From Thermodesulfobacteriota bacterium (GTDB lineage: Bacteria > Desulfobacterota > Desulfobulbia > Desulfobulbales > JBFMBH01), in assembly GCA_040755095.1 (NCBI GenBank), contig JBFMBH010000016.1, forward strand, positions 1 through 44,867: DNA of 44,867 nucleotides, in the 5' to 3' direction. The notes beneath the pieces are model-generated. The model saw only the letters and a program-made list of their open reading frames with translations, was not told the DNA's origin and did not search any database. A program made the translations under genes and the position numbers. The stretch's first letter is position 1, and each line of letters opens with the position of its first letter. Below are positions 8,448 through 33,125 of the stretch, piece by piece.

Positions 8448-8675
8448 GTGCCCACCCAGGCTTGCAGGCATGGCGCCGCACCCGGCCCAGGAAATCCGGC
8501 GCCACCGCCGGAGGATGGATCGGCCAGCGCATCGGCTGGCGCCGCCGAAAGGATCCCGCCGGAAAGCACCCGCGGCACCGGCGCGACGTGGCCACACGGT
8601 CGGCCGCCGCACAGAACAACGGCCGAAGATACCCCATGCCCCCGCTTTTTCAAGGGGGAATGGCGCCGGCCAGGC

Positions 8676-17866: not shown

Positions 17867-18086
17867 TCATGATGCCAGCGGCCTGGTGACCGCCATCCGC
17901 GCCTCGGTGGCCGCCTCCCGCTGCTCGATCACGGACAAGGAGGCGTCGATCACCCGGCAGCGGTCAGCAGCGAGAGCGAGAGCGATCTGCCGGTAACCTG
18001 CGGTCAGGGGCGTAGATGACCAGGGAACCGCGCTTCTGTGCCCGGCGGACGAAGACCTGGTCCTGGATGTACTCGCGGATAGTCAT
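17867..18086 (-). pseudogene. pglZ: N-terminal fragment of BREX phosphatase-like protein PglZ
   Basis: From ATG 18086 the frame reads MTIREYIQDQVFVRRAQKRG and SLVIYAPDRR. After a one-base frameshift near 17997 it continues YRQIALALAADRCRVIDASL and SVIEQREAATEA, then stops. This matches the opening of PglZ proteins, the alkaline-phosphatase-fold component of BREX phage defence. Only about 75 residues of a protein of several hundred remain. It lies downstream of the intact AlbA-like gene and the PglX tail on the same strand, which supports a former pglX-albA-pglZ operon. Three tandem near-palindromes lie upstream of it. Confidence 0.72.
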
Positions 18087-18206: not shown

Positions 18207-18268
18207 ATTTTATGCTCGCGCACATAAATTTTATGAGCGCGCTCTTAAATTACGTGCCTCGCTCATAA
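18207..18268. promoter_or_regulatory. Three tandem near-palindromic 20-21-bp units (operator-like array)
   Basis: Three head-to-tail units occupy 18207-18227, 18228-18248 and 18249-18268. The first two begin ATTTTATG and all end in TAA. Their centres are GC-rich alternating sequence (CTCGCGCA, AGCGCGCT, CCTCGCTC). Each unit is close to its own reverse complement. The array overlaps the stop codon of the AlbA-like gene and lies upstream of the pglZ fragment. Dyad units repeated every two helical turns usually mark a cooperative repressor or activator site. Confidence 0.6.
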
Positions 18269-19902
18269 ACGGCCGCCTTCCTCGTACCCGTTCGTCTTAG
18301 GCGCCCGGCCTCCACGAGTTGCTTGAGCAGCCGAGAGGCTTGGTGCTCTCCCAGCCGGCACAGATCCATCACGTCGCGCCGGCGGATGTTGCCGTGCTCG
18401 CGCACGTACCGCAGGACCATCTCTTCCTGCTGAATGGGCTCGAACCCGGCCTGCCGCACGTATTCGGCCTGCCGGCCGAGATTCCGGTAGACCTTGGCGC
18501 TCAGGGTGTAGGTACGGCCCCTCTTCACGCCATGGGCCTCGACCAGCCCGGCCTCCACGAGGCCTTCAAGTACTCCCCGGGCCAACGTCGAATCCTTCTG
18601 GATCGCCTTCGCCACCTGGCCCACGTCAACCCTCCGCCCCTCCCGGAGATCCGCCAGGGCGATCAGCGCGTCGAGGGCCAACGGTACGCGCCTCCGGTCT
18701 TCGTACTCCAAGATCATCCGGAGGAAGGGCACGTCGGCCTCAGCCTGGCTGAAGCGCACCACGACGCCGTTCGCATCGGACCGGCCGTAGTCGGGCGGCG
18801 GGCGGCCATAGCGCAGGAGCCCCTTGAAGATCAGATCGACCCCACGCCCCGTCCGCTCAGCAAGCCCGATGCGCTTCAAGGCGTCCGCCAGGGCCGGGTT
18901 CCTCGGCCGCGGCTCGACTGTGAGAAGGTTCTCCAGGGTCACGCCCTCCACGAACCCGCCCGGGTTGCTGACGGTGAGCCCATCGTCGTTCCAGCGCACG
19001 TGGACGGCGCCGAGCCGGGTGTAGTCCCGGTGGCACACGGCGTTGATGAACGTCTCGCGGAACGCCCTCCGGTCGAAGGTGGGGATCGGCACACGGAAAA
19101 GCCCAACCTGAATCTCCTCCTCTGTAACCCGGGTGGAGAATTGCTCTTCGATACGCTCGAAGACCCGCAGGAGGGGCCAGCGGTGGAAGTCGTTAACCCG
19201 GACCTCGGTGCCCTCCAGCACCTGGAACGCCACCTCGTGGGTGGGCAGGTGTGCGCGCAAGGACGGCTCCAGACCCAGGAGCAGCAGGCCTGTCACCGTG
19301 GGAACCCGGCGGCCCTCCTCGGTACGGACGAGCCCCAGGGCGCCGTCCAGTTCCCGGTCGCCGAGGCCCAAGAGCGCTCGATCGCCGCCGAAGCGCTCGA
19401 CCATCTGCCGCAGCCGTTGCCGCTCCAAGGGGTCCAGGTCCTGCTCCGATGCCCCGGCCACGGGCAGGGCCGAGTAGTCCAGGAGCCCGAGGTCGGACTG
19501 GCGCGAGGCGAACTCATGGGGAAGGAAGGGTACGCACTCGGGACTGCCGTCGGCCTTGAGCCTGCGGCGCTGGAGGAGGCCGTCCGCTGTGGCGACGAGC
19601 CGGTGCGACTTGGGGACCTCGATGCGCGCCACCAGGGTGCCAGCTTCCTCCACGGCGGTCACCCGTACCGACACCGGCGGCACGGTGCGATTGGCGATCA
19701 GGGCGGCCAGCCCCGTGAGGTTCAGGTGTTCGGCGTGGAGGCCGGTGATCTGCCCGTCTTTCTCGACGCCGAGGTACAGTTCGCCACCGTCGGTGTTGGC
19801 GAGACAGACCACGGCGGCGGCGAGGTCGGCGTCGCGCAGCCGCTTCGCGTCGCTCTTGAGCTCCACGGTCATCGACTCGTGCTCGGGAATCGTGCGCCTC
19901 AT
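18250..19902 (-). CDS. AlbA_2/Schlafen-type ATP-binding regulator (BREX-associated)
   Basis: The intact 550-residue protein has an N-terminal AlbA_2 (Schlafen-like) domain: VELKSDAKRLRDADLAAAVV, then LANTDGGELYLGVEKDG. A GHKL-type ATPase segment follows (FINAVCHRDYT, VSNPGGF, LKRIGLAERTGRGVDLI). The C-terminal half holds winged-helix repeats, for example EHGNIRRRDVMDLCRLGEHQ. Such proteins, often named RecG-like or transcriptional regulators, accompany BREX operons; their exact role is unsettled. The ATG overlaps the stop of the PglX remnant (ATGA). It appears to be the only complete gene left of this BREX locus, and its stop codon lies inside an operator-like array. Confidence 0.85.
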   Translation of the reverse strand: MRRTIPEHESMTVELKSDAKRLRDADLAAAVVCLANTDGGELYLGVEKDGQITGLHAEHLNLTGLAALIANRTVPPVSVRVTAVEEAGTLVARIEVPKSHRLVATADGLLQRRRLKADGSPECVPFLPHEFASRQSDLGLLDYSALPVAGASEQDLDPLERQRLRQMVERFGGDRALLGLGDRELDGALGLVRTEEGRRVPTVTGLLLLGLEPSLRAHLPTHEVAFQVLEGTEVRVNDFHRWPLLRVFERIEEQFSTRVTEEEIQVGLFRVPIPTFDRRAFRETFINAVCHRDYTRLGAVHVRWNDDGLTVSNPGGFVEGVTLENLLTVEPRPRNPALADALKRIGLAERTGRGVDLIFKGLLRYGRPPPDYGRSDANGVVVRFSQAEADVPFLRMILEYEDRRRVPLALDALIALADLREGRRVDVGQVAKAIQKDSTLARGVLEGLVEAGLVEAHGVKRGRTYTLSAKVYRNLGRQAEYVRQAGFEPIQQEEMVLRYVREHGNIRRRDVMDLCRLGEHQASRLLKQLVEAGRLRRTGTRKAAVYERGT

Positions 19903-20770
19903 GAGAGTTCGCTCTCGCCCAACAATGTCGACTTCTTCCGCCCCCGCTTCCCCTTCGGCTTCGGCGGCGCGACCTGGCAGAGGTGCTCCAGGCCGTGGGC
20001 GATGGCGATGGAGCGGTCCTTCTTGCAGGCGTCCTCTACCGCTTGAGCCAGATGATGTAGGCCAGGTGGGCCCAGTCGTGGTCGCCCTTGGCCAGCTTCT
20101 CCCAGCAGGCCTTCAGGTCCTTCTGCCACTTGGGCAGGCGGAAGAGCTTCCACAAGGGGCTCGCGGTGATGAGCACGCCGTCGTTCAGGTTCGGCTTCCA
20201 GGGGAGCTTGATGACGCGCTCGATCTCGGCCCGGAGGTCCTCCATCTCCTTCTCCAGGTCCAGCAACTCCTCCAGCCGGGCACGGGGGCCCGTGCCCTCG
20301 CGCAGGCCGGCGATCTCGGCCCGCACGACCTTGAGCTTCGGGGCCACGAAGTCGGCCAGGGCGGTGTGCAGGGTCTGGTCGGTGAGGCGGTGGTAGTAGA
20401 GCCAGAGGGTGTAGGAGCCCTTGGCTGTGGAGAGGGGCCAGTAGATCGGGGCCTGGCGGCGGCTCTTGGAGTAGCGCTTCAGATGGTCGGCGAAGAAGCC
20501 GGAGGGGCGCCGGAACCACTCGCGCAGGGTCTTCACGTCCAGCAGGTCACAAGCCTCGTGCTCAATCCCGTCGGCGCGGTCTTTCCAAACCACCTCAAGG
20601 ACCTCGCGTACACGGGCGACGATGTCCTCAGGGTGGTGCTCGTCGTCCGCGAGCATACCGTCCCAGGCCACATCGAGCGGGTAACTACCTTCGGCCCGCA
20701 GCCGGCGCCCGCTCTCCGGTGAGAGCGGCAGGCCGTCTTCTCCTTGAAGCATCGCAGGCGGACAGATCGG
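19899..20770 (-). pseudogene. pglX: C-terminal remnant of BREX methyltransferase PglX (BrxX)
   Basis: Homology begins near 20760 (LPLSPESGRR, DIVARVREVLEVVW) and runs through REWFRRPSGFFADHLKRYSK, APIYWPLSTAKGSYTLW, YYHRLTDQTL and DHDWAHLAYIIW, all characteristic of the PglX C-terminus. One base is missing near 20040, so the long frame stops at 20036. The true end (DACKKDRSIAIAHGLEHLCQ, then a Lys-rich tail) is in the next frame and stops at 19899. PglX methylates host DNA for BREX self-recognition, but the catalytic N-terminal two thirds are gone. The broken end abuts the stop of the five-gene operon at 20823. Confidence 0.87.
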
Positions 20771-20822
20771 TGTTCTTGCCGGCATTAGCGGCCGAGATCC
20801 GCCACCAGAAGAAGCCGGGCTG

Positions 20823-23774
20823 TCAGTCAGCGTCCTCGTCATCTGTTCCAATAGAGTACTCCGTCAAGATGTTGAGGAAATCAGTCTTCCCGGCATAGTC
20901 CAAGTAACCAATGGTGCCCGTGATGATCTCTTTGGCCTTGATGTATCGATTCTGCGGCATCGCCTTTTCCATTTTCTTGAGGTAGCCTTTCAACTTGTCT
21001 CGGATTTCGGAAGTTTCCTCGCTGCTGGCAGGAAGAAAGTTGCCATCGCATTTCCGGTAGCGCAAGAGATACAGCATCAGTTTGATGCCAGAAAAAAATT
21101 TATTCTTGAATTGTCCTTCTGCTGCATAACCATCAATCACCATCAAGACTGCTCCAAGCAGTATATTGATAGTTTTTTCGTTCAAGGCATCATGTCCGTT
21201 TCGTCGAAGGCTCATGATGTTGTTGCACGCTCGGACGCTTGGGTAAGAGAATTTATTGTCATCATGGATTTTTTTTGTGATACATTGCAAGATGCGACCA
21301 AGGTCCTTTGTCTCGGCAAGAGATCTACTCCCAGCTTCAATCGTTCGCGCACCACACCCAGGAATACAGAGATCTTGCCTGATTCGCTTGGTTACATGCT
21401 GCGGTGTAGCCCCGTAAAACCACGTGGCTCTGGTCAGTAACGAGCGGACTTGCTCGTCATCCCAGCCATCCAATTTCGTCGTATGTCTTTGCAGAGCCTC
21501 AATGAACCTGGCGACCAGACGTTCTCCCTCCTGGAAACCGGCCAATCCGTCCTGGCTCAGCACAGGGAGAAGAATTCGTTTCCAGGATTTCCGCGTTTTG
21601 ATGAAGCGATACATCTCATCAAGCCGTGTGTCGAAATCGGACGACCGAGGTGTTGTACCCTCAAATACATTCACCAAGTCGGGAATGCGGGCTTTCCTCC
21701 AAGGAGCAGGATCTGGGTGAGGTGTCAGCTCTTCCAAAGGTGGCCAGCCTCGGGCATCCGACACCAGTTCCTCGGTCGGGCAGGGGCGCATGGTCCGGTA
21801 ATCCACATAAACTCGGCGGCCATACAGGAACGATGGGTCCTGGGGGGTCACCTCCATCTGCGCCATGCCGCTTGCCGGACGGATGCGCACATGAAGGTCA
21901 ACGGGCATCCTCTCTGGTGGTGGCAGGGGAAAAGGGAAGGTGAGCCTTCGAAACGGAGTGTCCGCTTGTTTTTCTGCCTCCCTTTTATTTACCGTCTCTG
22001 GCCCCAGTGCACGCTGCTTCTCCTCTGGACCATCCGCTTTTGCGTGCCAGAGTTCCGCATAGATATCAGCATAACGAAGGGCAGCCGTGGAATTTTCAAT
22101 GTTGCGGAGATTCGTCTGGATTTTCTGCAAAGCTTCTTCTCGATTCGCAGCAGTCCTGACGAGATGACGTACCAGGCTTGCCTTGGCAATGGAAAGTCCG
22201 TCAGCAGAACTGCCTACTTCACGATCAAGACGATCAAGGCCTCCACTGGGCTTTAGCAATTCATCATGTCCGCCACCACGGGAGATGACAATATCAAGTT
22301 CATGAGAATGCTGCTCGATTTCAAACCGTCGACAGATATCGTTCTTATACTCCTGCCCCCCATCGGTGTCCTGGGCATCAACCAAAGGCGAAGTTGTATA
22401 GCGCCCGTCCTTCTTCGCCAACAGAAAATACTGCGGCAAGGTGTCGAGATAGGTCGGCTCGCCTTGTTGCAGTCGGTACAAGAAAAGCGCCGCACCCTGG
22501 GCAATGGCCTCACTGCCGGGATTCATCCAGAGGCGGTTCGCCTCACGGTTGTCCCACGGCCCACGCGTGTCCAGGCCCCGGGCTTCCAGTTCCGCAAAAC
22601 AATTCCGTAGCCAAACGGGTGGTTCGGCTGGAGCAAAGGGGCCGCAGACAGCCATTCCCACCAGCTGACCACCCTTTTGACTCTTGATGGTTTCCCGCAC
22701 AAGATTTGCCAGCCGGTCCGTCCATGCCGCGGGAGAGGGCACACTTCCTCGTAGGGAGCAAGAGGCTTTCAACGTTTCCTGTACTTGCCGTGATGGGCCA
22801 CAAACTGCCCTATCAAATCGAGCTGCGAGATCCTCCCTGGCCGGATTCCAGAAAGCATAGCCATGATCGAATCCCCAGGTCTGCGGCAAATCCGGCTGGC
22901 TCCAATGCCTTCCTGCCAGCACCTGCCATGCCTCTGGAAAGAATGAGAAGGCCCGCCAGAAAGCATCCCCGGCGCCCCCCTGAAGTTCGGGCAGCCCTGC
23001 CAGTGCCCGGCCCACCCAATCGTAGCCGGCAAGCGATGAAATCTCCCGGGGCCGCTCGCGGCGCGGCACGATGAAATCAACCCCTTGCTGGTTTTGGCAA
23101 ACCCGCAGCTTGAATGGCACACATTCAATGGCGTCCGGCCCGAGATAGAGGACAAGCAGAAAATCGTCTGGACGGCCCGTCATCGTCCGCCGACCTTCAA
23201 CCGTTCGAACCTTCATGTCGCCCCCAGCCTCTTCCAGCCAGGCGAGAGCGGCGGCCACGGGGCGCCACAGAAGTCGAACCTCAGTTCGGTCGCGGCGTTC
23301 AAATTCCCGTCTGAGCTCATCCAACAGGTTTTTCTGGCCGTACTCGTCAAGATCGTCAGGGATGGCCACTGCAACCTTCACATCGACAGGGTTTCCTTCC
23401 TCCAGAACGAGTAGATCCGCGATATGCGCCGCCAGGATTCTGGCAAGCGGGAAGGAAACCCCGCCGCCCACCTCCCAACGGGCCTGGCTGTCCCGCGCCT
23501 CGGTCAGGGCCCGCCATACACAACAGACAGGCGCCCGGCGCAGGTGTTCTCCAGCCTTGACGGAGGCCTCGGGTGGCCAAGGCAGGCCAGCATGCACTCG
23601 GGCTTTTCTGGCCTCTAATCCGGTCAGGATCGGCCCGTTCGGGTGCCCCGGAAGAACCACACACGCAGGCAGGAAATCGGCCGACTTGGCAATCGGGCCC
23701 GCGCACACAACGCTCATGTCGTCCAGCCCGAAGGCCGCACACCCCAGTATCAGGGGGTTCTTGCCATTGGTCAT
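20823..23774 (-). CDS. Hsp70/actin-fold (ASKHA) ATPase with long novel C-terminal region
   Basis: This 983-residue protein is the last gene of the five-gene operon. The N-terminal about 450 residues resemble a diverged Hsp70 ATPase domain. There is an initial strand NPLILGCAAFGLDD. VAVAIPDDLDEYGQ (about 135-146) parallels the Hsp70 VPAYF segment, and LLWRPVAAALAWL (about 168-180) parallels the NEPTAAALAY segment. LLVLYLGPDAIE (206-217) replaces the phosphate-2 DLGGGT loop, and GSEAIAQGAALFL parallels the final AVAxGAA helix. The canonical DLGGG glycines are reduced to LGP, so ATP binding may be altered. The C-terminal half has no fold I recognise. The ATG overlaps the upstream gene's stop (ATGA). 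The frame is open to 23837, but the coupled ATG is preferred. Its G+C content looks lower than that of flanking housekeeping genes. Confidence 0.75.
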   Translation of the reverse strand: MTNGKNPLILGCAAFGLDDMSVVCAGPIAKSADFLPACVVLPGHPNGPILTGLEARKARVHAGLPWPPEASVKAGEHLRRAPVCCVWRALTEARDSQARWEVGGGVSFPLARILAAHIADLLVLEEGNPVDVKVAVAIPDDLDEYGQKNLLDELRREFERRDRTEVRLLWRPVAAALAWLEEAGGDMKVRTVEGRRTMTGRPDDFLLVLYLGPDAIECVPFKLRVCQNQQGVDFIVPRRERPREISSLAGYDWVGRALAGLPELQGGAGDAFWRAFSFFPEAWQVLAGRHWSQPDLPQTWGFDHGYAFWNPAREDLAARFDRAVCGPSRQVQETLKASCSLRGSVPSPAAWTDRLANLVRETIKSQKGGQLVGMAVCGPFAPAEPPVWLRNCFAELEARGLDTRGPWDNREANRLWMNPGSEAIAQGAALFLYRLQQGEPTYLDTLPQYFLLAKKDGRYTTSPLVDAQDTDGGQEYKNDICRRFEIEQHSHELDIVISRGGGHDELLKPSGGLDRLDREVGSSADGLSIAKASLVRHLVRTAANREEALQKIQTNLRNIENSTAALRYADIYAELWHAKADGPEEKQRALGPETVNKREAEKQADTPFRRLTFPFPLPPPERMPVDLHVRIRPASGMAQMEVTPQDPSFLYGRRVYVDYRTMRPCPTEELVSDARGWPPLEELTPHPDPAPWRKARIPDLVNVFEGTTPRSSDFDTRLDEMYRFIKTRKSWKRILLPVLSQDGLAGFQEGERLVARFIEALQRHTTKLDGWDDEQVRSLLTRATWFYGATPQHVTKRIRQDLCIPGCGARTIEAGSRSLAETKDLGRILQCITKKIHDDNKFSYPSVRACNNIMSLRRNGHDALNEKTINILLGAVLMVIDGYAAEGQFKNKFFSGIKLMLYLLRYRKCDGNFLPASSEETSEIRDKLKGYLKKMEKAMPQNRYIKAKEIITGTIGYLDYAGKTDFLNILTEYSIGTDDEDAD

Positions 23775-25501
23775 GCGAGCATCTTCTCCAACATGTAATG
23801 CAGAGAAAGCATAATGGTCTCGGTGCCATCCATCCATCCCGCTGGCATCATTGGGACAGTGATCAGGCGTAGCTTCTCACGATTGACCTCGCTGGATGCT
23901 TTCGGCTCGAAATGGCTGCACAGGACAAGCCCCCGAAGCATTGGCGGCTGCTCAAGCCTGGCCATGTCCAGGAGGGTCTGGTGGCCATCCAATGCCTTGG
24001 CGGCGGAGGCAGCAATTTTTTCCCAGGAAGGAATCTTTGTCGAAGCGGCTGTGTGGACAGCCCAGACAATCAACACACGGGGTGGAACCTTCTGTTCCAC
24101 AGGCCGGAGAACAAGATAGAGTTGACCGCCGGTAAAGCCGAGATGACGTGCGACGGGGTGGTCTTTCGCATTCTCCGGATGAACGATCTCCAATACGGCT
24201 CGTCGGGGCGGCCCTTCTCCCCTGTTGCGCCGTTCAATCAGCAGGGGGCCTGTTTCGCAGCCGGCCGCGGCCCGGCTGCCCAGGATCTGTTCGCCCCGTA
24301 CCTGGAGCGCCCCTTCGTACAATGTGGAGAGCCGCAGGGAGTTACTGCCATCAAGCTCCTCCATGTGGAGAATAATGGCGACGCTGACCAGCAGGCGGGC
24401 AATATCCGCCCAGGTTCTGGACTGCCAGTCCCAGAATCGGTCCTTTTCCCTCTCCTGCCGCAGGAGCCGCTGATACCATCGCCAGACTTGCCGATAGCGC
24501 ATGTCATGGAGCAGCACATAATTGGGCGGCGTAGACGGATGTGGGGCGTCCACCTCCTCCAAATGAGGCGCCATGGCGAGCTGGGTGCAGAGAGAGGAGA
24601 GAGACCGTACTCTCCCGGTACGTTCTGAATTCTCGAAGGCGGGATTCTCGGACCGGGCATTGGCGATATACCTCTTGGCCTCTGCCGTGCAGCGATGGAG
24701 GAAATCCTTGAGGATGCGGTTTTCGTGCAAGTTGTAGGTTTCTTGCCGAGCTACCGCGAGCAGTCGCTGCCTCGACCCCGCCTTTTCGGCCAAGGTCCGT
24801 CCTTGCTGACGGATGTACCAGTGGAGGCAGGCACTGTCGGTCTCCTCCACCCTACCGGCGGGCAAGAGCCGCCGTTCCCGGAGCAGGACACGACGAGCGG
24901 CCCGCACGGTTTCAGGGAGTGGCCGGTGCATGGTTTCGGCAATGTCCACAATGATGGCCCGGGATGGCTCTTGCGTCGCCTCTGCCAATTCCTTCAGGTA
25001 GGCCTTGACCCTTGTCCATTCCAACAACTCGTTTGATCGACTCATGGCATGAGCCTTATCCAGCAGCTCGTCGAACCGGCTGGACCAGGCAAGCACCGTT
25101 CGATACAAGTCGGAATCCCGGCTGGCACCTTGTTCATCGCACCTCTCCCACCTGGGTTTTACACCTTTGGGCGAGAGAAGGACTCGTTGACGGACGTTAT
25201 CGCCATTGATGGTGCTGTGAATGGCAAGGCCGGCATTGTTTGAAACGTCGGCATCGGCCCCATGCGGGCTTTCGAAAAGGCGGCAACGTTCCGGAGAGGA
25301 CGGAGGCAGAAAGGATGGTCCCAACGGGTGAAACCGCTCGTGCCGGGCGGGCAGGAAGATTTGAGCGCTCTCAGCCAGCGAGATGATTGGACTGCCATAG
25401 TACGGGAACGTGACCTCGCCGTCGGAGAGGTTCCTGGTTTCCTCGCCCGTGGCGCAAGACCAGGGCCAGAAATGAACACGGGCCGGAATCCGAACGGTCA
25501 T
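23771..25501 (-). CDS. DUF2357/McrC-like nuclease-family protein
   Basis: A 576-residue protein placed directly after the McrB-like ATPase, the position of McrC in McrBC loci. The central segment RQETYNLHENRILKDFLHRC (about 252-271) matches the conserved helix of DUF2357 proteins, which carry a PD-(D/E)XK nuclease fold. The C-terminal part contains alternating strands (RRAVLEIVHPENAK, GGQLYLVLRP, PPRVLIVWAVHT), but I do not find the usual D-x-K (DAK) catalytic strand. The nuclease may be inactive, highly diverged, or replaced by the VSR-like nuclease of the operon's helicase. Both ends overlap neighbours by ATGA. Family assignment is fairly sure; activity is not. Confidence 0.7.
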   Translation of the reverse strand: MTVRIPARVHFWPWSCATGEETRNLSDGEVTFPYYGSPIISLAESAQIFLPARHERFHPLGPSFLPPSSPERCRLFESPHGADADVSNNAGLAIHSTINGDNVRQRVLLSPKGVKPRWERCDEQGASRDSDLYRTVLAWSSRFDELLDKAHAMSRSNELLEWTRVKAYLKELAEATQEPSRAIIVDIAETMHRPLPETVRAARRVLLRERRLLPAGRVEETDSACLHWYIRQQGRTLAEKAGSRQRLLAVARQETYNLHENRILKDFLHRCTAEAKRYIANARSENPAFENSERTGRVRSLSSLCTQLAMAPHLEEVDAPHPSTPPNYVLLHDMRYRQVWRWYQRLLRQEREKDRFWDWQSRTWADIARLLVSVAIILHMEELDGSNSLRLSTLYEGALQVRGEQILGSRAAAGCETGPLLIERRNRGEGPPRRAVLEIVHPENAKDHPVARHLGFTGGQLYLVLRPVEQKVPPRVLIVWAVHTAASTKIPSWEKIAASAAKALDGHQTLLDMARLEQPPMLRGLVLCSHFEPKASSEVNREKLRLITVPMMPAGWMDGTETIMLSLHYMLEKMLA

Positions 25502-28005
25502 GCCTGGTCATCCTGCCGCGTCACACCCTGCCAAAGGAACATGCCAGAGGCGTTGCTTTCCCGCGCAGTGGCGAAGGCCTTGTGCAGTTCCCCGTCGCCG
25601 GTATCTTCAATGATCTTTCCAATATCATCAAAAGCAGCATTGTTGATGCCTTCCGTGGTATCGAACCCCCGCAGCTTGGGCAGTATCTTCTGTTCGATCT
25701 GGTCGGCAAAGGCGTCTTTGAAGACGTCGCGAGTCACGCCTGGGTAGTTAGCCACATAGGCCAGAATGCTTTTCCGAACTCGATGCCCAAACGGGCGCCC
25801 CACTCTGGTGAGTGCATCATTGAGACCATTGATCCATTCCTGCGCCTTTTCGGTCCAGTCAGCCGACTCGACGGGGCGACACCATTTTGCCCACTGTTCA
25901 GCCTTCAGGTATCCAAGAGGTTGCGGCAGCGGACGTTCCTGGATCTGTTGTGGCCCCGCCGGGCCTGTTTTTGCCGGGCGACCAAAGCGCAGGACGTTGG
26001 CCCGATCGAGGACTTTGTCAGAGAGGGTCTGGGTGGATTCGTCCTCGTTCATGGTGCCAGTAAAAAGGACATTTTGTCCCACACAGAATTTGATGGCCTC
26101 CCGTCCTGGTCCAGTGTCCAGAAGAATTGTGTCGTGTTGATGATCGCGGTCAGCCAACCTCCGCAACTCAAGCTTGGAGAGAAACTCGCTGAAATAGTAC
26201 TCGGTGCGTGCCAGGTTCATCTCATCGAGCAAAACAAGCAGCATCCGATCAGAGCATTTCTGCTTTTCATCAAGTCCTTCCACGGTACAGGAACGGTCCA
26301 TGCGGATGAGGGCACGGGCCAGATCGGTCGCCTTGTATTTTTTTTCCAGGTAGTTGTAGAAGCCGAACATGTCCTGCGGCGAATCCCAACGCGGCTGAAC
26401 CGCGATCACCAAAGAATGCATGCCCATGAGTCTGGCATAGGCGGTGGGCAGAAGGGTCTTGCCAGTTCCGGACACACCGGCAAGCACAGTCAGCGGGTTG
26501 ATGTCATGGCACTTGAGGGCCGTATGGAAGGCCTTCACCACACGTTCCTGGAAGTGATATCCGACATCGGCAAGTTGCCGACAGATCTCCGCCAGGGCAC
26601 CTTCCTCATCGCTATACGGGAATTCCTTTTTGGGCAGGTGGCTGGGGTCAAGGCAGTCGGGTGCTTTCTTGAGGAGATCGGCGTGGGCGTTATCCATCTC
26701 TGGCCCGCCACCGCCCTCAAGACCGCCGACCTCCTTGCGCAACCTGTCGCGCTCCCCTTCGAGAACTGCCACTTCAATGCCAAGACGCTTTTCCTTGTTC
26801 TCCACTTCTTCAAGCCGGTCCTCCGCCTTTTTCAGCCGGCTGGTCATCGCAAGGTGACTTGCTTCCGCCCTCCGTGTCTGGTCATCCCAATACTGGACCG
26901 CCTTTTCGCTTTCTGGCACTTTTCTCTGAGCATCAGCAAGAGCTTGTTCGATGTTGGACTTTGTTCTTTCCAACTGTTGAACCTGTCGGACAAGACTCTG
27001 AAGCAACTCCTCCTTCAGAGAAAGTTCGTGGTGTTTTTCCTGAACCTGACGGCTCATGTCGCCAAGAATCTTGCCGGATTCCTCAGCTTCCGCCATGCGG
27101 CGCCGAGCCTTCTCCTCGGCTTCTTTTGCAGATACTTCCGCAACCTCTCGATCTTTTTCAAGATCGGCCATCTCCTGCTTGAATCCAGCCTTCTCTTCCT
27201 CCAGCCTTCTGATCCCACGCTCAAAGTCATGAATGCGGTCCTCGGCCTGAATCAAAACCCCCTTTTGCAGCTGAACCTGCTGAGTTATTTCCAGAAGCTG
27301 CCTGCTTGATTCTTCAGCCTCTCGATGTGCTCGTTCGTTCTCGGTCTTTGCGTTTTCCGCCTGTTGCATCAATTCAACTCGATGCCTGTCCAGTCCATCA
27401 CACTCACGGCGCAGTGCGTCGAGTTCAATGCGCCTTTCCACAACCTGCCTGACGACATCCTCCCGTTCTTTCTGCGCTGCGCTCCATTCCTGCTTCACTG
27501 CGTCAAGGGACTTGTATATTTCCTTAAGCTGCGTCTCGACGCTGACCAGTTCAGCCCGTTGCCTTTCCAGATCCTCGATGCGATGTCGCAGATCTTCTGC
27601 CTCGTGGTTCAACCTTTCGATGACTTGGGAAATGGTATGCCGCTGAGCCTCGAATTCTCCAGCCTCCCTTCGCAGTTCTACGTTTCGTTGCTCTTCAGCA
27701 GCACATTCGTGCTGAAGTCGTGTCAACTCGCCGCGCAAGCGTTCCTGTTCAACCCTTTCGGAATCCAGTCGTACCAACTCATCCTTCTGAGCCGTAAACC
27801 AATCCCGCAACCCTTGCACATCAGACTGAAGTTGTTCCTTGCGCGCTGCAAGAGAAGACGCATCGCGGCTGTCGCCAAGGGCCGCGGAAAAACGGCGTTG
27901 ATGATACAGGTACATGCCAAAAATAATCAGCATGATGATTATGACCCCGGCTGTGGCCAACAGCCACAATCCAGCCGGAAGGATCGGAACGGAAACGGTA
28001 TTCAT
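25498..28005 (-). CDS. Membrane-anchored coiled-coil protein fused to McrB-like AAA+ NTPase
   Basis: The 835-residue protein has one transmembrane helix (about 12-35, with VIIIMLIIFG) and a very long heptad-rich coiled coil from about 45 to 430, rich in Glu, Lys, Arg, Gln and Leu. A Gly-rich hinge leads to an AAA+ domain of the McrB class: Walker A GVSGTGKT (510-517), Walker B VLLDEMNLAR (591-600) followed by TEYYFSEFLSKLE, sensor 1 TGTMNEDEST (649-658), and the LSDKVLDRANVLRF arginine region. McrB proteins are GTPases that drive a McrC nuclease. The membrane tether and coiled coil replace the usual N-terminal modified-DNA reader. AAGGAG precedes ATG 28005. The frame stays open to 28413, but that part antisenses the neighbouring gene. 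Confidence 0.85.
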   Translation of the reverse strand: MNTVSVPILPAGLWLLATAGVIIIMLIIFGMYLYHQRRFSAALGDSRDASSLAARKEQLQSDVQGLRDWFTAQKDELVRLDSERVEQERLRGELTRLQHECAAEEQRNVELRREAGEFEAQRHTISQVIERLNHEAEDLRHRIEDLERQRAELVSVETQLKEIYKSLDAVKQEWSAAQKEREDVVRQVVERRIELDALRRECDGLDRHRVELMQQAENAKTENERAHREAEESSRQLLEITQQVQLQKGVLIQAEDRIHDFERGIRRLEEEKAGFKQEMADLEKDREVAEVSAKEAEEKARRRMAEAEESGKILGDMSRQVQEKHHELSLKEELLQSLVRQVQQLERTKSNIEQALADAQRKVPESEKAVQYWDDQTRRAEASHLAMTSRLKKAEDRLEEVENKEKRLGIEVAVLEGERDRLRKEVGGLEGGGGPEMDNAHADLLKKAPDCLDPSHLPKKEFPYSDEEGALAEICRQLADVGYHFQERVVKAFHTALKCHDINPLTVLAGVSGTGKTLLPTAYARLMGMHSLVIAVQPRWDSPQDMFGFYNYLEKKYKATDLARALIRMDRSCTVEGLDEKQKCSDRMLLVLLDEMNLARTEYYFSEFLSKLELRRLADRDHQHDTILLDTGPGREAIKFCVGQNVLFTGTMNEDESTQTLSDKVLDRANVLRFGRPAKTGPAGPQQIQERPLPQPLGYLKAEQWAKWCRPVESADWTEKAQEWINGLNDALTRVGRPFGHRVRKSILAYVANYPGVTRDVFKDAFADQIEQKILPKLRGFDTTEGINNAAFDDIGKIIEDTGDGELHKAFATARESNASGMFLWQGVTRQDDQA

Positions 28006-28039
28006 GGCAACTCCTTTTTTCGCGGAGGAGAGGCAGAGA

Positions 28040-29587
28040 TCACGGCTTTTTCGGAACACCTGGCGGGTTGAGAGGCGATTGTTCCGAAAGATCGGTGCTG
28101 GCTGCATCCTGCTGGGCATGCCGACCCTGCACCTGACTGATCTCCTCTTCCATCTTGCGCCGGGTGTCCTTGAGATCCCTGACGGTTGAGGCGAGGTCGT
28201 CTCCGGCCACCTTGACACCCTGGGATGCCGTCGACAACGCATCGACCACCGCCAGAACAGCTGCATCGCGCGTGGAAAATTCCTGTAGCGTCTCAGCAAG
28301 CTGATCAAGATTGGCCCCGGCCGTTTTCGCCGCCTGTGCTGCATCATCCAAGGCGTCCAAGGACTGGGAGACAGCGTCCTTGCGTGAGCTGACATCCCTC
28401 GCCACCTTGTCAAGACGACCGGCTCCCGAGTCGAGCTTGCCAGCCGTTTCCTCGATAACCTTCTGATGCGAAATCAAGGCGCCACTGGCGGTCCTTATCT
28501 TTGTTTCCAGGTCCACCAGGGTCCCTACAGCGCCTTGCAGGCTACCGACCAAGCCGGAAAGCTGCCTCTGTTCGGCAGACAGGCTGGCGACCATTTCGGT
28601 GAACTTGGCAATCTTATCCTTCACCCCGTCAACTGCAGGACCCAGTTTGCCCTCGGTGGCTGTCGAAAGAGCGGTGGCCGTCTTGCCAAGCGTGGCAACA
28701 GCCGTGTCGAGATTTGTCTGCCGGTCCGCAATGCGCTGCGCCAGCCCGTCGACCTGCGCAACGCCCTTCTGGAGTACAGCGACGGCGTCATCGGCTCTTT
28801 TCGCGGCCACTTCAAGTCCTTTCGCATCGGCCGTCACCTGTTGGCTCGCACCGGCAAGAGCCTTGCCAGCACTGCCAGCCCCCTGCTCCATGTCCTTCAA
28901 CGTTCTGCTCAGCTCCATGAGACGAGTTGGCAGGGTGGCCAATGCTTCGTCCAGTTCCGCCCGACGCTTCTCCAGTTGGGCTATTGTGTCTCTCAGAATG
29001 GAGAGCCTTCCCTGTTCCGCCGTCGTTTCCTTCAGGGCTGCTCCTCTTTGATCCTGCAGCTTGGCGATCTCCAGCGAAAGGGCATCGTTGGCCCGGATGA
29101 GTTCAGCTTGCTCCTTGTTCAACGTGCCCATTTTCCTTTGAACGTCCACCAACTGGTCTTGCGCCTCGCTTGCCCTGGACTGGAGGCCCTTGAGCTCCTC
29201 TTCTGCCTTTGCCCTCTTGCCTTCCATGGCCACCAGCCGCGTTTCAGCGGCACCAACTGCTGCCTGTAGACCAAACAAGGTCGTCTCGGCCTCCTGGCGG
29301 TGCCTCTGCAGTTCGGGCAGTTGGGCCAGGATTTCGCCGTAGGTTTTCAAGTCATCACTCAGTCGTGCACGATCCTTGGCGAGGGAGGTCCGCTCCTCGA
29401 GCAGGGTGGCCCGTTCCTGCTCAAGGTTGACGATCTTCCAACCGGAGAGAGCGGAAAAGATGACCACGAGAGCAACTAGGCCGCACATGAGGGCAAACGG
29501 GGGAGGTCGATCAAGGAGAATCGGCCTCGTCAAGGGCTCGTCGGTCGGCGGACCTGACGGAAGTACGGAGTCAGGCTGCATGCTCAT
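28040..29587 (-). CDS. Membrane-anchored coiled-coil protein
   Basis: The 515-residue protein has a short Pro-rich cytoplasmic start, one transmembrane helix at about 32-50 (FALMCGLVALVVIFSALSGW), and then almost continuous coiled coil to the end. The first half is rich in Glu, Leu and Arg; the second is rich in Ala, Thr, Asp and Val (for example DKIAKFTEMVASLSAEQRQL), like methyl-accepting or tail-fibre helices. No catalytic domain is seen. It resembles its downstream neighbour's N-terminal half in layout, so the two may co-assemble at the membrane. The ATG at 29587 overlaps the helicase gene by 17 bases and is preceded by GGAG. A second ATG at 29581 is possible. Confidence 0.8.
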   Translation of the reverse strand: MSMQPDSVLPSGPPTDEPLTRPILLDRPPPFALMCGLVALVVIFSALSGWKIVNLEQERATLLEERTSLAKDRARLSDDLKTYGEILAQLPELQRHRQEAETTLFGLQAAVGAAETRLVAMEGKRAKAEEELKGLQSRASEAQDQLVDVQRKMGTLNKEQAELIRANDALSLEIAKLQDQRGAALKETTAEQGRLSILRDTIAQLEKRRAELDEALATLPTRLMELSRTLKDMEQGAGSAGKALAGASQQVTADAKGLEVAAKRADDAVAVLQKGVAQVDGLAQRIADRQTNLDTAVATLGKTATALSTATEGKLGPAVDGVKDKIAKFTEMVASLSAEQRQLSGLVGSLQGAVGTLVDLETKIRTASGALISHQKVIEETAGKLDSGAGRLDKVARDVSSRKDAVSQSLDALDDAAQAAKTAGANLDQLAETLQEFSTRDAAVLAVVDALSTASQGVKVAGDDLASTVRDLKDTRRKMEEEISQVQGRHAQQDAASTDLSEQSPLNPPGVPKKP

Positions 29588-32500
29588 CGGCGTTTCTCCA
29601 TTGATGAAGGATCCTTTCCACACAACCATCCATATCCTCGCGCAGTTGATAGACCCAGAACCGCATCACCTTCCACCCCAGTCCCTGGAGCTGAATATCC
29701 CGCCACAGATCATCCAGCTTCCGGGAGCCGTCCGAATTGCGGTGGCAGCAGGCGCCATCAACCTCGATATCGATCTTGCGCGGCCGGGGAGCCCCACTGA
29801 ACAAGGCGAGGTCCAGCCGCCGCCCTGCCACAGGATGTTGCGGTACAGGGGAAAGCCCATGCGCCATCAAGGCCTCGGCCAGCTTCTTCTCCCATGGCGA
29901 CTCATGCGGCGCCCAGGGGCTGTCTGCAGGGGAATGCACGATGGCCCTGCGCGGCATGGCCAAGCGCTCGACATGCTGGATACCACAGTTCCTGGCCCAG
30001 GCCCGATTGCCGACTATGCGCGCCACCGCCCGCGCCCTGCTGATCGCCACATTGAACAGATTGCCGTTTTCCCGCAGAAAATGAAGCCCGCCCTGGGGCA
30101 TACCCGGTCCGGCGCAGAGGCTGAAAAGAATGACATCCCGTTCATCACCCTGGAAGCCGTGTGATGTGTCAACAACGACCCGAGCCGAACGTAGGGCTTC
30201 CCAGGGGATACCGCCGTCATGAATGGCTTCGCGCAAACGGTTCGCCTGTTCACGAAAAGGCGTGACCACGCCGAGCGATCCCTTGAAGGAGCCATCCGCC
30301 AGGATCTCACGAACGATGTCCGTTATCGCCTCGACCTCCGGGGCACAAAAGGCGCCCCCAGAGCCGCCACTACGGACATCTCCCTGAACCTCATCCCAGT
30401 GAAGGCCGGGCTTCATTCCTGACACAACCGGCAGCCGGGCAACGTCCGTGGCCACGCGCAGCCTTCCGCCATAGAAAAGATCGTTGGAGTAGGCCGCGAT
30501 CTCCTCGACGCTTCGGTAGGTCTCACACAGGAGGATCGGGGAAACACCGTCCGTATCAGCGAACAGGGCATAGAGCGAGGATTCGACAAACGAGAATCGC
30601 TGTTGCGCCAGGCGATCCATGCCGGCCCGGCGACGAAGCATGGTGTCCTTGGCCAGCGATAGCGTGGTGACGTGCGTGAGTTGCTGGGGGTCGCCGACCA
30701 CGCCGGCCCTTCTCGCGCGAAAGAGAAGAGGGATGGCGGAAGGGATATCGGACTGACTTGCCTCATCGACGATTACGAGATCGAAGACCCCGGGCAGAAG
30801 GGGGATGCGGCTGCCCGCGGAGAGGCTGGTCACGGCCCACGCGGGATAGTGTTCCAGGAGCTTGGGGAGTTGTGTGCGAAGGACCTCTTTGACTTCCTGT
30901 TGGAGGCTCGTGGAGGCGGTTGCCTGTTCAAGGAACCCCAGGGCAGAGCGGAGATTGGCATAGAGCTCCCGGCTGTCGGCGGGCAGGAGGCCGCCTCGCG
31001 CCAATGCCAGCTTTTCGAGCAGCCCCGTGGATATGTTCATGATCTGTTCGCTGGCAAGCGAAACATCCGAGACAAGGGCTGGTTCATCAGCAAGGAGGCG
31101 AACCTCTTTTTCCAGGCCGGCGCGGAAGGCGAGAGCGGCACAATACTCTGCGGCGTCTCGCAGGAGTCCCAGTTGTCGCCTGAAGGCTTCGATCCTGCCG
31201 GGCGTGCTTATCAACCCCTCTGGAGCGGGCAGCCCCGGAATGCGGCGCAGTTTACGCCCGAGTGTGATCCATGCCGGCATGGCGGCCATGGCTGCTCGCC
31301 AGGCAACCCAACGGGAGATCGTGTCGCCGGGGCCGCGGAGCAAGAGCCGCGCTGCTTCCTCCACCCGCTGCAGCGCTGGCTCGGGAAAACCCGAGGAGAG
31401 GTTGCCCAGCGTGGACAAAAGGGCTTCGGGCAGTTTTCCCACCAACAGGGAAACCTTTTCCTCCAGCTCACCCAGCCGTTCCCGGTAAGCCCGGAACACC
31501 TCCAGCTGTTTCAGGTTTGCCGCCCGCACATCGAGCAAGCGTCGCAATTCGGTAAGAAGCGGGGACGCAGCTTCCGCCGCCTTCTCATCGGCCTGGCCGG
31601 CGAGGAGTCGGCCGATGGCAGACGTGAAAGTCTCACGCAGACCAGGATCATCCCGACTGTTACAACGCACGAGAAGAGATTGCCCTTCCCCGCAACGGCA
31701 ACGGGCATGCACGGCATCGATGGCCTTGTGGTTACGGCTGGAGAACAGCACACTCTGACTGCACAGATGAATGTTGGCGATCGCCGCGCTTACCACCTGA
31801 CTCTTGCCGGTTCCCGGCGGCCCGGTCACAACCGTGATTGGCTGGTTGAGTAGGCACTCGACCGCGTTTCGTTGTTCGGAGTTGAGATTCGTGACGTCGG
31901 CCACCTGAACATTGGCTCTGGAGGGTTCATTTTCCGACCGGGCGTGTTCTCCCTCGGCGCGAAACAGCAGGCGAAGCGCTGTCTTGTCCAGCTCGCTGTC
32001 CGGGAATTCTGCAATGGCGGCCAGCTCCTTGAGGAGCGTCTTGGTGTACTGCGGCCGACGGGCGAGCATGACGACAGCCCGATTGTAGATGCCTGTTGTG
32101 AGGGGCGGTCGGAAATCGGAGGAGGGAATAGCGTCGGGCAAGAGTGGCTCTTGCAGCTCCCGCGACAGGAACGCGGCCAGGGTCGCAGCCAGATGGTCGA
32201 GGCTCGGACCAGATCGGGAGGCTGGTGCGGCGTCGTCGTCCCCGCCGAGGAAGCCACAGGCGGAGAGGAAACCACGACGTTTTTCCGCATCCTTGAAGGT
32301 GTGGTGCATCCATTCCAGATTGATCTGCGCATGGGGGTGATCTGCTTGCAACACGAGTGAGCCCTGGCTCAACTCATGATCCAGGGCGTAGTGAAAAACG
32401 GGTTTCAGCAGAAAGGAGTCGGGTTCGCCCTCCCGTTGCCACTTCACAACCTGCAGCGGATAGCCAAGAACCAGAAGGGCATCCTGCCCGGCGCTGGCGA

Positions 32501-33056
32501 GCTGCTCGATCATCGGGCCCAGATGACGACCAAGCGGCACCGTGTGCCGCCATGGTCGGCCAGGGCGTGGCAGCCACGATCCGACCCGCGTAACAAGGAA
32601 AAATTTCTCATTCAGGTTGTCGAGACCGGCCATGGCCTCGGCTCCACCTTCGTTCCGGATGCAGTCCCGATAATATTGAAGAAGCATCCGGAAGTTCCCC
32701 CACGGACTTGGCAAAGAATCCTTGGGTCGATCGCCGTCTGGACCTTCGGGGGCGGCTGGTGGTGGTGGAAAACTCGGCTGCCCAAGGAGATGAAGGGCTT
32801 CCCCTGAAATCTTCGGAAATGCAATGCTGCCCGAAGAGCATGTAGGTTCTGTTGGGGCAGCTACAATGCGCCATCGGCCCATTGCGAACTGCACATGCCC
32901 CTCCTGCATGAGGTCGCGCAGGGCGCCCAACACTTCATGTTCCGGTACGCGACGCCCTTGCGTAGCAAGCCTTCGTCTGAGGTCACGGACGGGAGTGGGG
33001 TGCGGTGCCGCATTGAGAATAGCGAGAAGTTCCGCCTTCATGTCTTCCTGGGACAT
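29571..33056 (-). CDS. UPF1/Dna2-like SF1 helicase with N-terminal winged helix and C-terminal VSR/DUF559-type nuclease
   Basis: The first gene of the operon encodes 1161 residues. Residues about 5-65 look like a winged helix (LLAILNAAPHPTPVRDLRRR). The helicase core follows: a Q-like motif LNSEQRNAVE, Walker A GPPGTGKS (412-419), a long helical insert (about 480-740), Walker B VIVDEASQSD, GDPQQL, CETYRS, VTPFREQANR, and motifs V/VI (DTSHGFQGDERDVI, FNVAISRARA). The C-terminal 115 residues match VSR/DUF559-like PD-(D/E)XK nucleases: ESPWEKKLAEAL, RRLDLALF, IDIEVDGACCH, SRKLDDLWRD and LGWKVMRFW. All catalytic positions appear present. I chose ATG 33056; an upstream TTG at 33116 and an ATG at 33041 are alternatives, and none has a strong ribosome-binding site. 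Confidence 0.87.
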   Translation of the reverse strand: MSQEDMKAELLAILNAAPHPTPVRDLRRRLATQGRRVPEHEVLGALRDLMQEGHVQFAMGRWRIVAAPTEPTCSSGSIAFPKISGEALHLLGQPSFPPPPAAPEGPDGDRPKDSLPSPWGNFRMLLQYYRDCIRNEGGAEAMAGLDNLNEKFFLVTRVGSWLPRPGRPWRHTVPLGRHLGPMIEQLASAGQDALLVLGYPLQVVKWQREGEPDSFLLKPVFHYALDHELSQGSLVLQADHPHAQINLEWMHHTFKDAEKRRGFLSACGFLGGDDDAAPASRSGPSLDHLAATLAAFLSRELQEPLLPDAIPSSDFRPPLTTGIYNRAVVMLARRPQYTKTLLKELAAIAEFPDSELDKTALRLLFRAEGEHARSENEPSRANVQVADVTNLNSEQRNAVECLLNQPITVVTGPPGTGKSQVVSAAIANIHLCSQSVLFSSRNHKAIDAVHARCRCGEGQSLLVRCNSRDDPGLRETFTSAIGRLLAGQADEKAAEAASPLLTELRRLLDVRAANLKQLEVFRAYRERLGELEEKVSLLVGKLPEALLSTLGNLSSGFPEPALQRVEEAARLLLRGPGDTISRWVAWRAAMAAMPAWITLGRKLRRIPGLPAPEGLISTPGRIEAFRRQLGLLRDAAEYCAALAFRAGLEKEVRLLADEPALVSDVSLASEQIMNISTGLLEKLALARGGLLPADSRELYANLRSALGFLEQATASTSLQQEVKEVLRTQLPKLLEHYPAWAVTSLSAGSRIPLLPGVFDLVIVDEASQSDIPSAIPLLFRARRAGVVGDPQQLTHVTTLSLAKDTMLRRRAGMDRLAQQRFSFVESSLYALFADTDGVSPILLCETYRSVEEIAAYSNDLFYGGRLRVATDVARLPVVSGMKPGLHWDEVQGDVRSGGSGGAFCAPEVEAITDIVREILADGSFKGSLGVVTPFREQANRLREAIHDGGIPWEALRSARVVVDTSHGFQGDERDVILFSLCAGPGMPQGGLHFLRENGNLFNVAISRARAVARIVGNRAWARNCGIQHVERLAMPRRAIVHSPADSPWAPHESPWEKKLAEALMAHGLSPVPQHPVAGRRLDLALFSGAPRPRKIDIEVDGACCHRNSDGSRKLDDLWRDIQLQGLGWKVMRFWVYQLREDMDGCVERILHQWRNADEHAA

Positions 33057-33125
33057 TCGTGATCGATGCGTATTCTGTCCAGTAACATCCTCTCGCAGCT
33101 GCTGTTGATGCTGCAAACAGGAGAC

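Follow-up and report, generated by a model that had tools for sequence, protein, structure and literature searches.

The window, a stretch of 44,867 nucleotides from a Thermodesulfobacteriota bacterium, carries a minus-strand gene (18250-19902) that is flanked by two BREX remnants and ends in an array of tandem repeats:

17964-18086, minus strand: 5' remnant of pglZ, downstream of the array, corresponding to PADLOC PglZ positions 1-30 (E 0.0013)
18207-18227, no strand: array unit 1, ATTTTATGCTCGCGCACATAA, with the 18-bp dyad TTATGCTCGCGCACATAA at 18210-18227
18228-18248, no strand: array unit 2, ATTTTATGAGCGCGCTCTTAA, with the dyad TTATGAGCGCGCTCTTAA at 18231-18248
18249-18269, no strand: array unit 3, ATTACGTGCCTCGCTCATAAA, less symmetric, with TTACGTGCCTCGCTCATAA at 18250-18268
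18250-19902, minus strand: gene of the likely binding protein, 550 aa, with SLFN_AlbA_2, HATPase_c_4, and a C-terminal winged helix
18310-18348, minus strand: codons for residues 519-531, the predicted recognition helix within the last winged helix; this stretch begins 41 bp from the array
20036-20851, minus strand: C-terminal remnant of pglX, upstream of gene 18250-19902, corresponding to PADLOC PglX positions 1047-1270 of 1332

The pglZ remnant starts with an ATG at 18086 and its open frame stops after 40 residues, and the last 37 matched PglX positions of the other remnant lie in a different frame (ORF 19899-20519). As both pglX and pglZ are remnants, the BREX context has decayed, while gene 18250-19902 is still open. 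The initial annotation had placed the array between a regulator gene and the start of pglZ; only a remnant of pglZ is found there. Upstream of the pglX remnant, the minus strand (20823-33116) encodes DUF2357, AAA_5, coiled-coil, and helicase-nuclease (MTES_1575) proteins and an unidentified 1004-aa protein; together, these genes resemble a separate defence operon that abuts the decayed BREX end.

The 550-aa protein possesses an SLFN_AlbA_2 domain at residues 9-103 (PF04326, 49.7 bits, cut-off 25.3) and an HATPase_c_4 domain at residues 299-382 (PF13749, 60.3 bits, cut-off 26), and it matches HTH_27 slightly below the cut-off (20.8 bits, cut-off 22.2). AlphaFold2 predicted a winged-helix topology at residues 489-548; the full-length model is poor (mean pLDDT 46.8) and usable for parts, including this last winged helix, and the region of the recognition helix has a block pLDDT of about 76-87. 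By its domains the protein belongs to the Schlafen-AlbA_2/HATPase_c_4/winged-helix proteins, an architecture of the COG2865 type. It is a Schlafen by fold family, and its role as an RNase is putative. The sole solved relative found by sequence is PDB 3lmm (E 5e-23, residues 260-542), an uncharacterised 583-aa protein whose entry name states no function. A 2026 survey of BREX describes in its main text a Schlafen RNase with a minimal histidine kinase and a winged helix as auxiliary effectors, present in at least 1017 taxa (PMC12839542). These auxiliaries have the same domain order as the 550-aa protein, are linked to BREX genes, and are treated there as backup effectors. The words 'inverted repeat', 'operator', and 'intergenic' are absent from that main text, which does not describe a 3' array under them.

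Direct reading resolves the array into three near-palindromes of 20-21 bp, arranged head to tail at 18207-18269, of which unit 2 is closest to the array consensus. Because the gene lies on the minus strand, the array falls behind its stop codon (18250-18252), and unit 3 covers this codon together with the last codons of the gene. The array is the top tandem repeat of the window (score 62, the highest of 35 rows), and the palindrome consensus with up to 3 mismatches has two matches in the window, both within the array, and none in 100 dinucleotide shuffles, which bears out the tandem near-palindromes that the initial annotation had described at the gene end. The dyad centres lie at 18219.0, 18229.5, and 18240.0, in steps of exactly 10.5 bp. 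A scan of both strands found no intrinsic terminator (GC stem-loop, then T run) at the array, and a sigma-70 pattern, applied to this locus only, found no promoter-like site between the array and the pglZ remnant. Repeated array 8-mers are absent from the 460 nt around the 5' end of the gene.

Across the whole 4.52-Mb genome, a gapped array pattern has three matches, all in the array (reversed control: 1), and the consensus with up to 3 mismatches occurs at eight places (reversed control: 0). Two of these are in this array, with 1 mismatch each; two others, 21 bp apart and with 1-2 mismatches, are in the last codons of a paralogue on contig C116; the remaining four are single sites with 3 mismatches each. 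We ruled out a dispersed repeat, as the motif at up to 2 mismatches is restricted to two gene ends in the genome. PF13749 was found at 12 places, only two of which have the long tandem-winged-helix tail; both carry the array, and none was seen by eye at the other ten. The array of the paralogue (8473-8511; L008, L171) lies within the reading frame, where the last codons read MGAPITDMGAP, and the next gene encodes an AAA_21 ATPase.

Relatives were sought with query P0001 in 395, 398, and 282 genomes of three phyla, of which 44, 14, and 24, respectively, have a match at E ≤ 1e-20. In addition, 60 PF13749 genes were chosen from a list of more than 150 places, following E-value order approximately and before their 3' ends were seen; rows from the own genome, rows of genes already collected, and most rows whose frame was short or that lay close to a contig end were left out. 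For each gene, the 7-mers that recur, counting both strands, in the region from -30 to +130 relative to the stop codon were compared with 300 shuffles. An excess of 3' repeats (p ≤ 0.05) was found for 40 of 76 genes of the P0001 set, compared with 8/75 inside the genes, 8/74 downstream, and 10/71 at the ends of other genes; L048 and L049 (duplicates) as well as L072 and L077 (too short) were dropped from this set, which still includes some truncated or frameshifted genes (e.g., L030 and L033). Similarly, 27 of the 60 PF13749 genes have the excess, and the controls gave 5/60 inside the gene, 7/59 at 400-560 nt downstream, and 3/30 at the ends of other genes. At this threshold about half of the genes have no excess (36/76 and 33/60). 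Among the 60 genes, the likeness of the last winged helix to a profile of the P0001 clade, built separately from these genes, predicts the strength of the array (rho 0.42, p 8e-4); the same correlation is 0.13 and -0.04 in two control regions. When the 60 genes are split at HMM > 0, the excess at p ≤ 0.05 occurs in 23/46 versus 4/14, which is not a significant difference (Fisher p 0.22). A search for more clade members in 48, 42, 71, and 274 genomes, some of them seen before, added two loci (L155 and L156), and the viral contigs searched contained none.

The arrays of relatives occupy the same place but have different letters in almost every one of them. For example, two close relatives (L016 and L017, 66% identity) have an array of other letters across the stop codon, ahead of pglX. 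As for the conservation of the units in related loci to which the initial annotation looked, the letters are not kept, yet the place and the geometry are. The arrays of the 27 clade loci contain 56 dyads, compared with 14.6 in shuffles and 24 in the interior of the genes, and of the 33 distances from one dyad centre to the next, 9 measure exactly 10.5 bp; since a 21-bp tandem of symmetric units yields 10.5-bp gaps automatically, repeat length and phasing are one fact, not two. No dyad was found by the same criterion in four of the 27 loci (L023, L028, L075, and L076). In more distant relatives the repeats are direct, and their lags are 9, 11, 20-22, 31-32, or 42 bp in 10 of 13 arrays (off those lags are L121, L128, and L154); the spacings of most direct-repeat arrays, like those of the palindromic ones, agree with turns of 10.5 bp.

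Some of these gene ends have features of their own. At the 3' end of L061, in a non-defence setting, a 20-bp dyad is repeated in tandem at least six times with hardly any variation. In L118 and L132, direct repeats extend into the coding sequence and appear as repeated C-terminal peptides (e.g., QIGQIGQK in L118), seemingly an array growing into the gene end. Within the L095-L154 set, direct-repeat arrays mostly go with proteins that have a single C-terminal winged helix, where HATPase_c_4 is followed by about 76-91 residues, and inverted arrays are common where about 155-168 residues follow, with exceptions such as L097 and L099. Repeats are also present behind recGc, a gene on plasmid pC of Rhizobium etli CIAT 652.

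The letters of the array vary with the recognition helix. Over the 27 clade loci (347 of 351 pairs), recognition-helix identity tracks array similarity once the remainder of the protein is controlled for (partial correlation 0.18, permutation p 0.005). L061 and L058 are 84% identical over residues 1-470 and 81% identical in the winged helix, have different recognition helices, and their arrays have almost no 6-mers in common (Jaccard 0.01). L061 and L060, with only 65% and 64% identity in the same regions, have the helix P[YF]QATRLLNRL in common, and the Jaccard index of their arrays is 0.17 (mean 0.037, 95th percentile 0.091). A Lys after the invariant Gln-Ala (QAK) pairs with GGGC..GCCC dyads in 4/4 loci versus 0/23 others, a rule noticed post hoc, after inspection of the data; this Lys has changed independently at least three times on a tree of 26 rows, and a fifth QAK gene (L156, frameshifted) has no GGGC..GCCC dyad near its end. 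A per-column covariation scan marks positions 519, 520, 523, 524, and 527 of the recognition helix as variable. Columns beyond the winged helix (405, 449, and 455) stand out in it as well, and we rejected contact residues named from it because the scan is too noisy. These outside columns and the modest partial correlation imply that clade structure contributes to the covariation. Because the array letters change with the recognition helix, it is very probable that the protein binds DNA at the end of the gene encoding it.

Position, genome-wide uniqueness, phasing, and covariation with the recognition helix can all be read from sequence, and we estimate a probability of about 0.8 that the array comprises the binding sites of the C-terminal winged helix of the protein whose gene it ends. 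The initial annotation had offered an operator array for the AlbA/winged-helix protein itself as one candidate, and it is this candidate that genome specificity, the arrays of relatives, helix covariation, and helical phasing favour. Plasmid rep genes are followed by comparable elements: the P1 incA and F incC iterons are tandem repeats of about two turns, helically phased, and bound by a winged-helix protein encoded just upstream. The array resembles them in its tandem helical phasing and in the winged-helix gene next door, with binding predicted here; unlike iterons, no replication gene or origin is known to be involved, and the arrays are palindromic or direct, with varying letters. A cis-linked, iteron-like operator appears to be the best reading of the array.

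In an operator of this kind, half-sites would alternate in orientation with one per helical turn, which could align the protomers along a single face of the DNA. Gene and array would form one cis-linked unit, with the recognition helix, the wing, and the sites all contained in about 140 bp. A change in specificity could therefore be inherited or exchanged along with the sites, and this linkage would stop cross-talk between paralogues in one genome. A bound oligomer would reduce transcription where its own gene ends and onward into the following gene of the operon. This would create negative feedback, and infection would lift the repression by drawing the protein elsewhere. In 22 of the 24 clade loci with a repeated 8-mer (27 examined), array 8-mers do not occur near the 5' end of the gene, which is unlike ordinary 5' autoregulation. 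If the protein does bind, the odds are about even, in our judgement, that the main effect of the array is to dampen transcription of the end of its gene and of the operon beyond it.

The array could instead be an ordinary promoter operator of the next gene (pglX, pglZ, etc.) that merely lies behind the regulator gene, which we consider rather unlikely. The next gene often begins about 75-190 bp behind the stop codon in intact loci, and BrxR likewise has a second box within its island, as described in PMC9122601; against this stand the missing sigma-70 promoter-like site at this one locus and the convergent gene behind the array in at least two relatives (pdxA in L061, an HU/IHF-like gene in L064). 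Genes behind the arrays of other relatives include pglX (with an intact start in L016 and L017), pglZ (L019), and genes for AAA-ATPase, DUF1156, type I specificity, and helicase proteins; upstream of L061, none of the neighbours that have a Pfam match is a defence gene. Among 50 loci with an array, a crude strand call placed the downstream gene on the same strand in 24 and as convergent in 5, gave no such gene in 9, and was ambiguous in 12; one further locus was too short. Since the downstream genes are varied and in part convergent, the array belongs to its gene and not to one neighbour, and an element specific to albA-pglZ is contradicted by relatives whose arrays precede pglX, other defence genes, or convergent housekeeping genes. 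The initial annotation had also suggested a lost BREX regulator; an operator of such a regulator, or chance repeats left by the decayed operon, would fit the pglX and pglZ remnants at this locus, but arrays lie at the same place where the start of pglX is intact and in non-BREX contexts, and this array is unique in the genome except at the paralogue. No lost regulator is needed, and we regard this explanation as extremely improbable.

The main rival on function accepts the same sites but gives them a different purpose: the array would be a DNA anchor or sink that holds (or assembles) a Schlafen-type RNase effector in an inactive state beside its gene, until the effector is set free or activated, either because host DNA is lost or through competition during infection. 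The location of the sites at the 3' end and their general absence around the 5' end are consistent with this, as are the arrays retained ahead of pdxA and the HU/IHF-like gene, and P1 incA and F incC iterons act by titration and handcuffing. In its main text, PMC12839542 also describes the architecture as a Schlafen RNase that serves BREX as an auxiliary effector. However, most array-bearing genes that could be called have a downstream gene on the same strand (24 versus 5 convergent), which fits expression control too, and the RNase activity is putative, by fold family only; we hold this reading tentatively, as a rather unlikely one. It seems distinctly doubtful that Schlafen-GHKL-winged-helix proteins in general carry a private, helically phased array with a helix-to-site code at their gene ends, and that this array is a DNA 'antitoxin' or sensor by which the RNase stays assembled and inert until infection perturbs the complex or the host DNA. 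The repeats might also act as RNA, in the form of terminating or protecting hairpins or a type III-like RNA antitoxin. As RNA, this array folds better than its shuffles (z -3.7), and 12 of the 27 palindromic clade arrays reach z ≤ -2, but inverted repeats tend to fold in any case, and none of the 13 direct-repeat arrays reaches z ≤ -2. Neither a terminator-like site nor an Rfam family near its threshold was found at the array (a sub-threshold match is irrelevant), and helical phasing and covariation with a DNA-recognition helix would not be expected of RNA elements. An RNA function is therefore highly improbable, and it is much the likelier that the array acts as DNA.

The proposed operator of the winged-helix protein differs from those of known regulators. 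The BrxR/CapW WYL proteins, which regulate defence islands, also have a winged helix and bind inverted repeats beside their own gene; the boxes of BrxR are located upstream of brxR and near PbrxA, as described in PMC9122601, whereas here a phased array spans the stop codon. The 550-aa protein has no WYL domain among its Pfam matches, and with the WYL fold absent and the array at the 3' end rather than upstream, it is not of the BrxR/WYL type. Among the open PMC papers listed for COG2865, AlbA_2, Schlafen, and BREX regulators, no title or abstract opening describes arrays at 3' ends.

If the array is bound as predicted, a widespread family of immune proteins would have its DNA target written beside each gene. 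Targets and a specificity code could then be read from sequence for many members, and the role of the winged helix would become directly testable. Cis-linked sites would explain how paralogues avoid cross-talk, and the 3' end of a regulator gene, where operators are rarely looked for, would be marked as a place for them.
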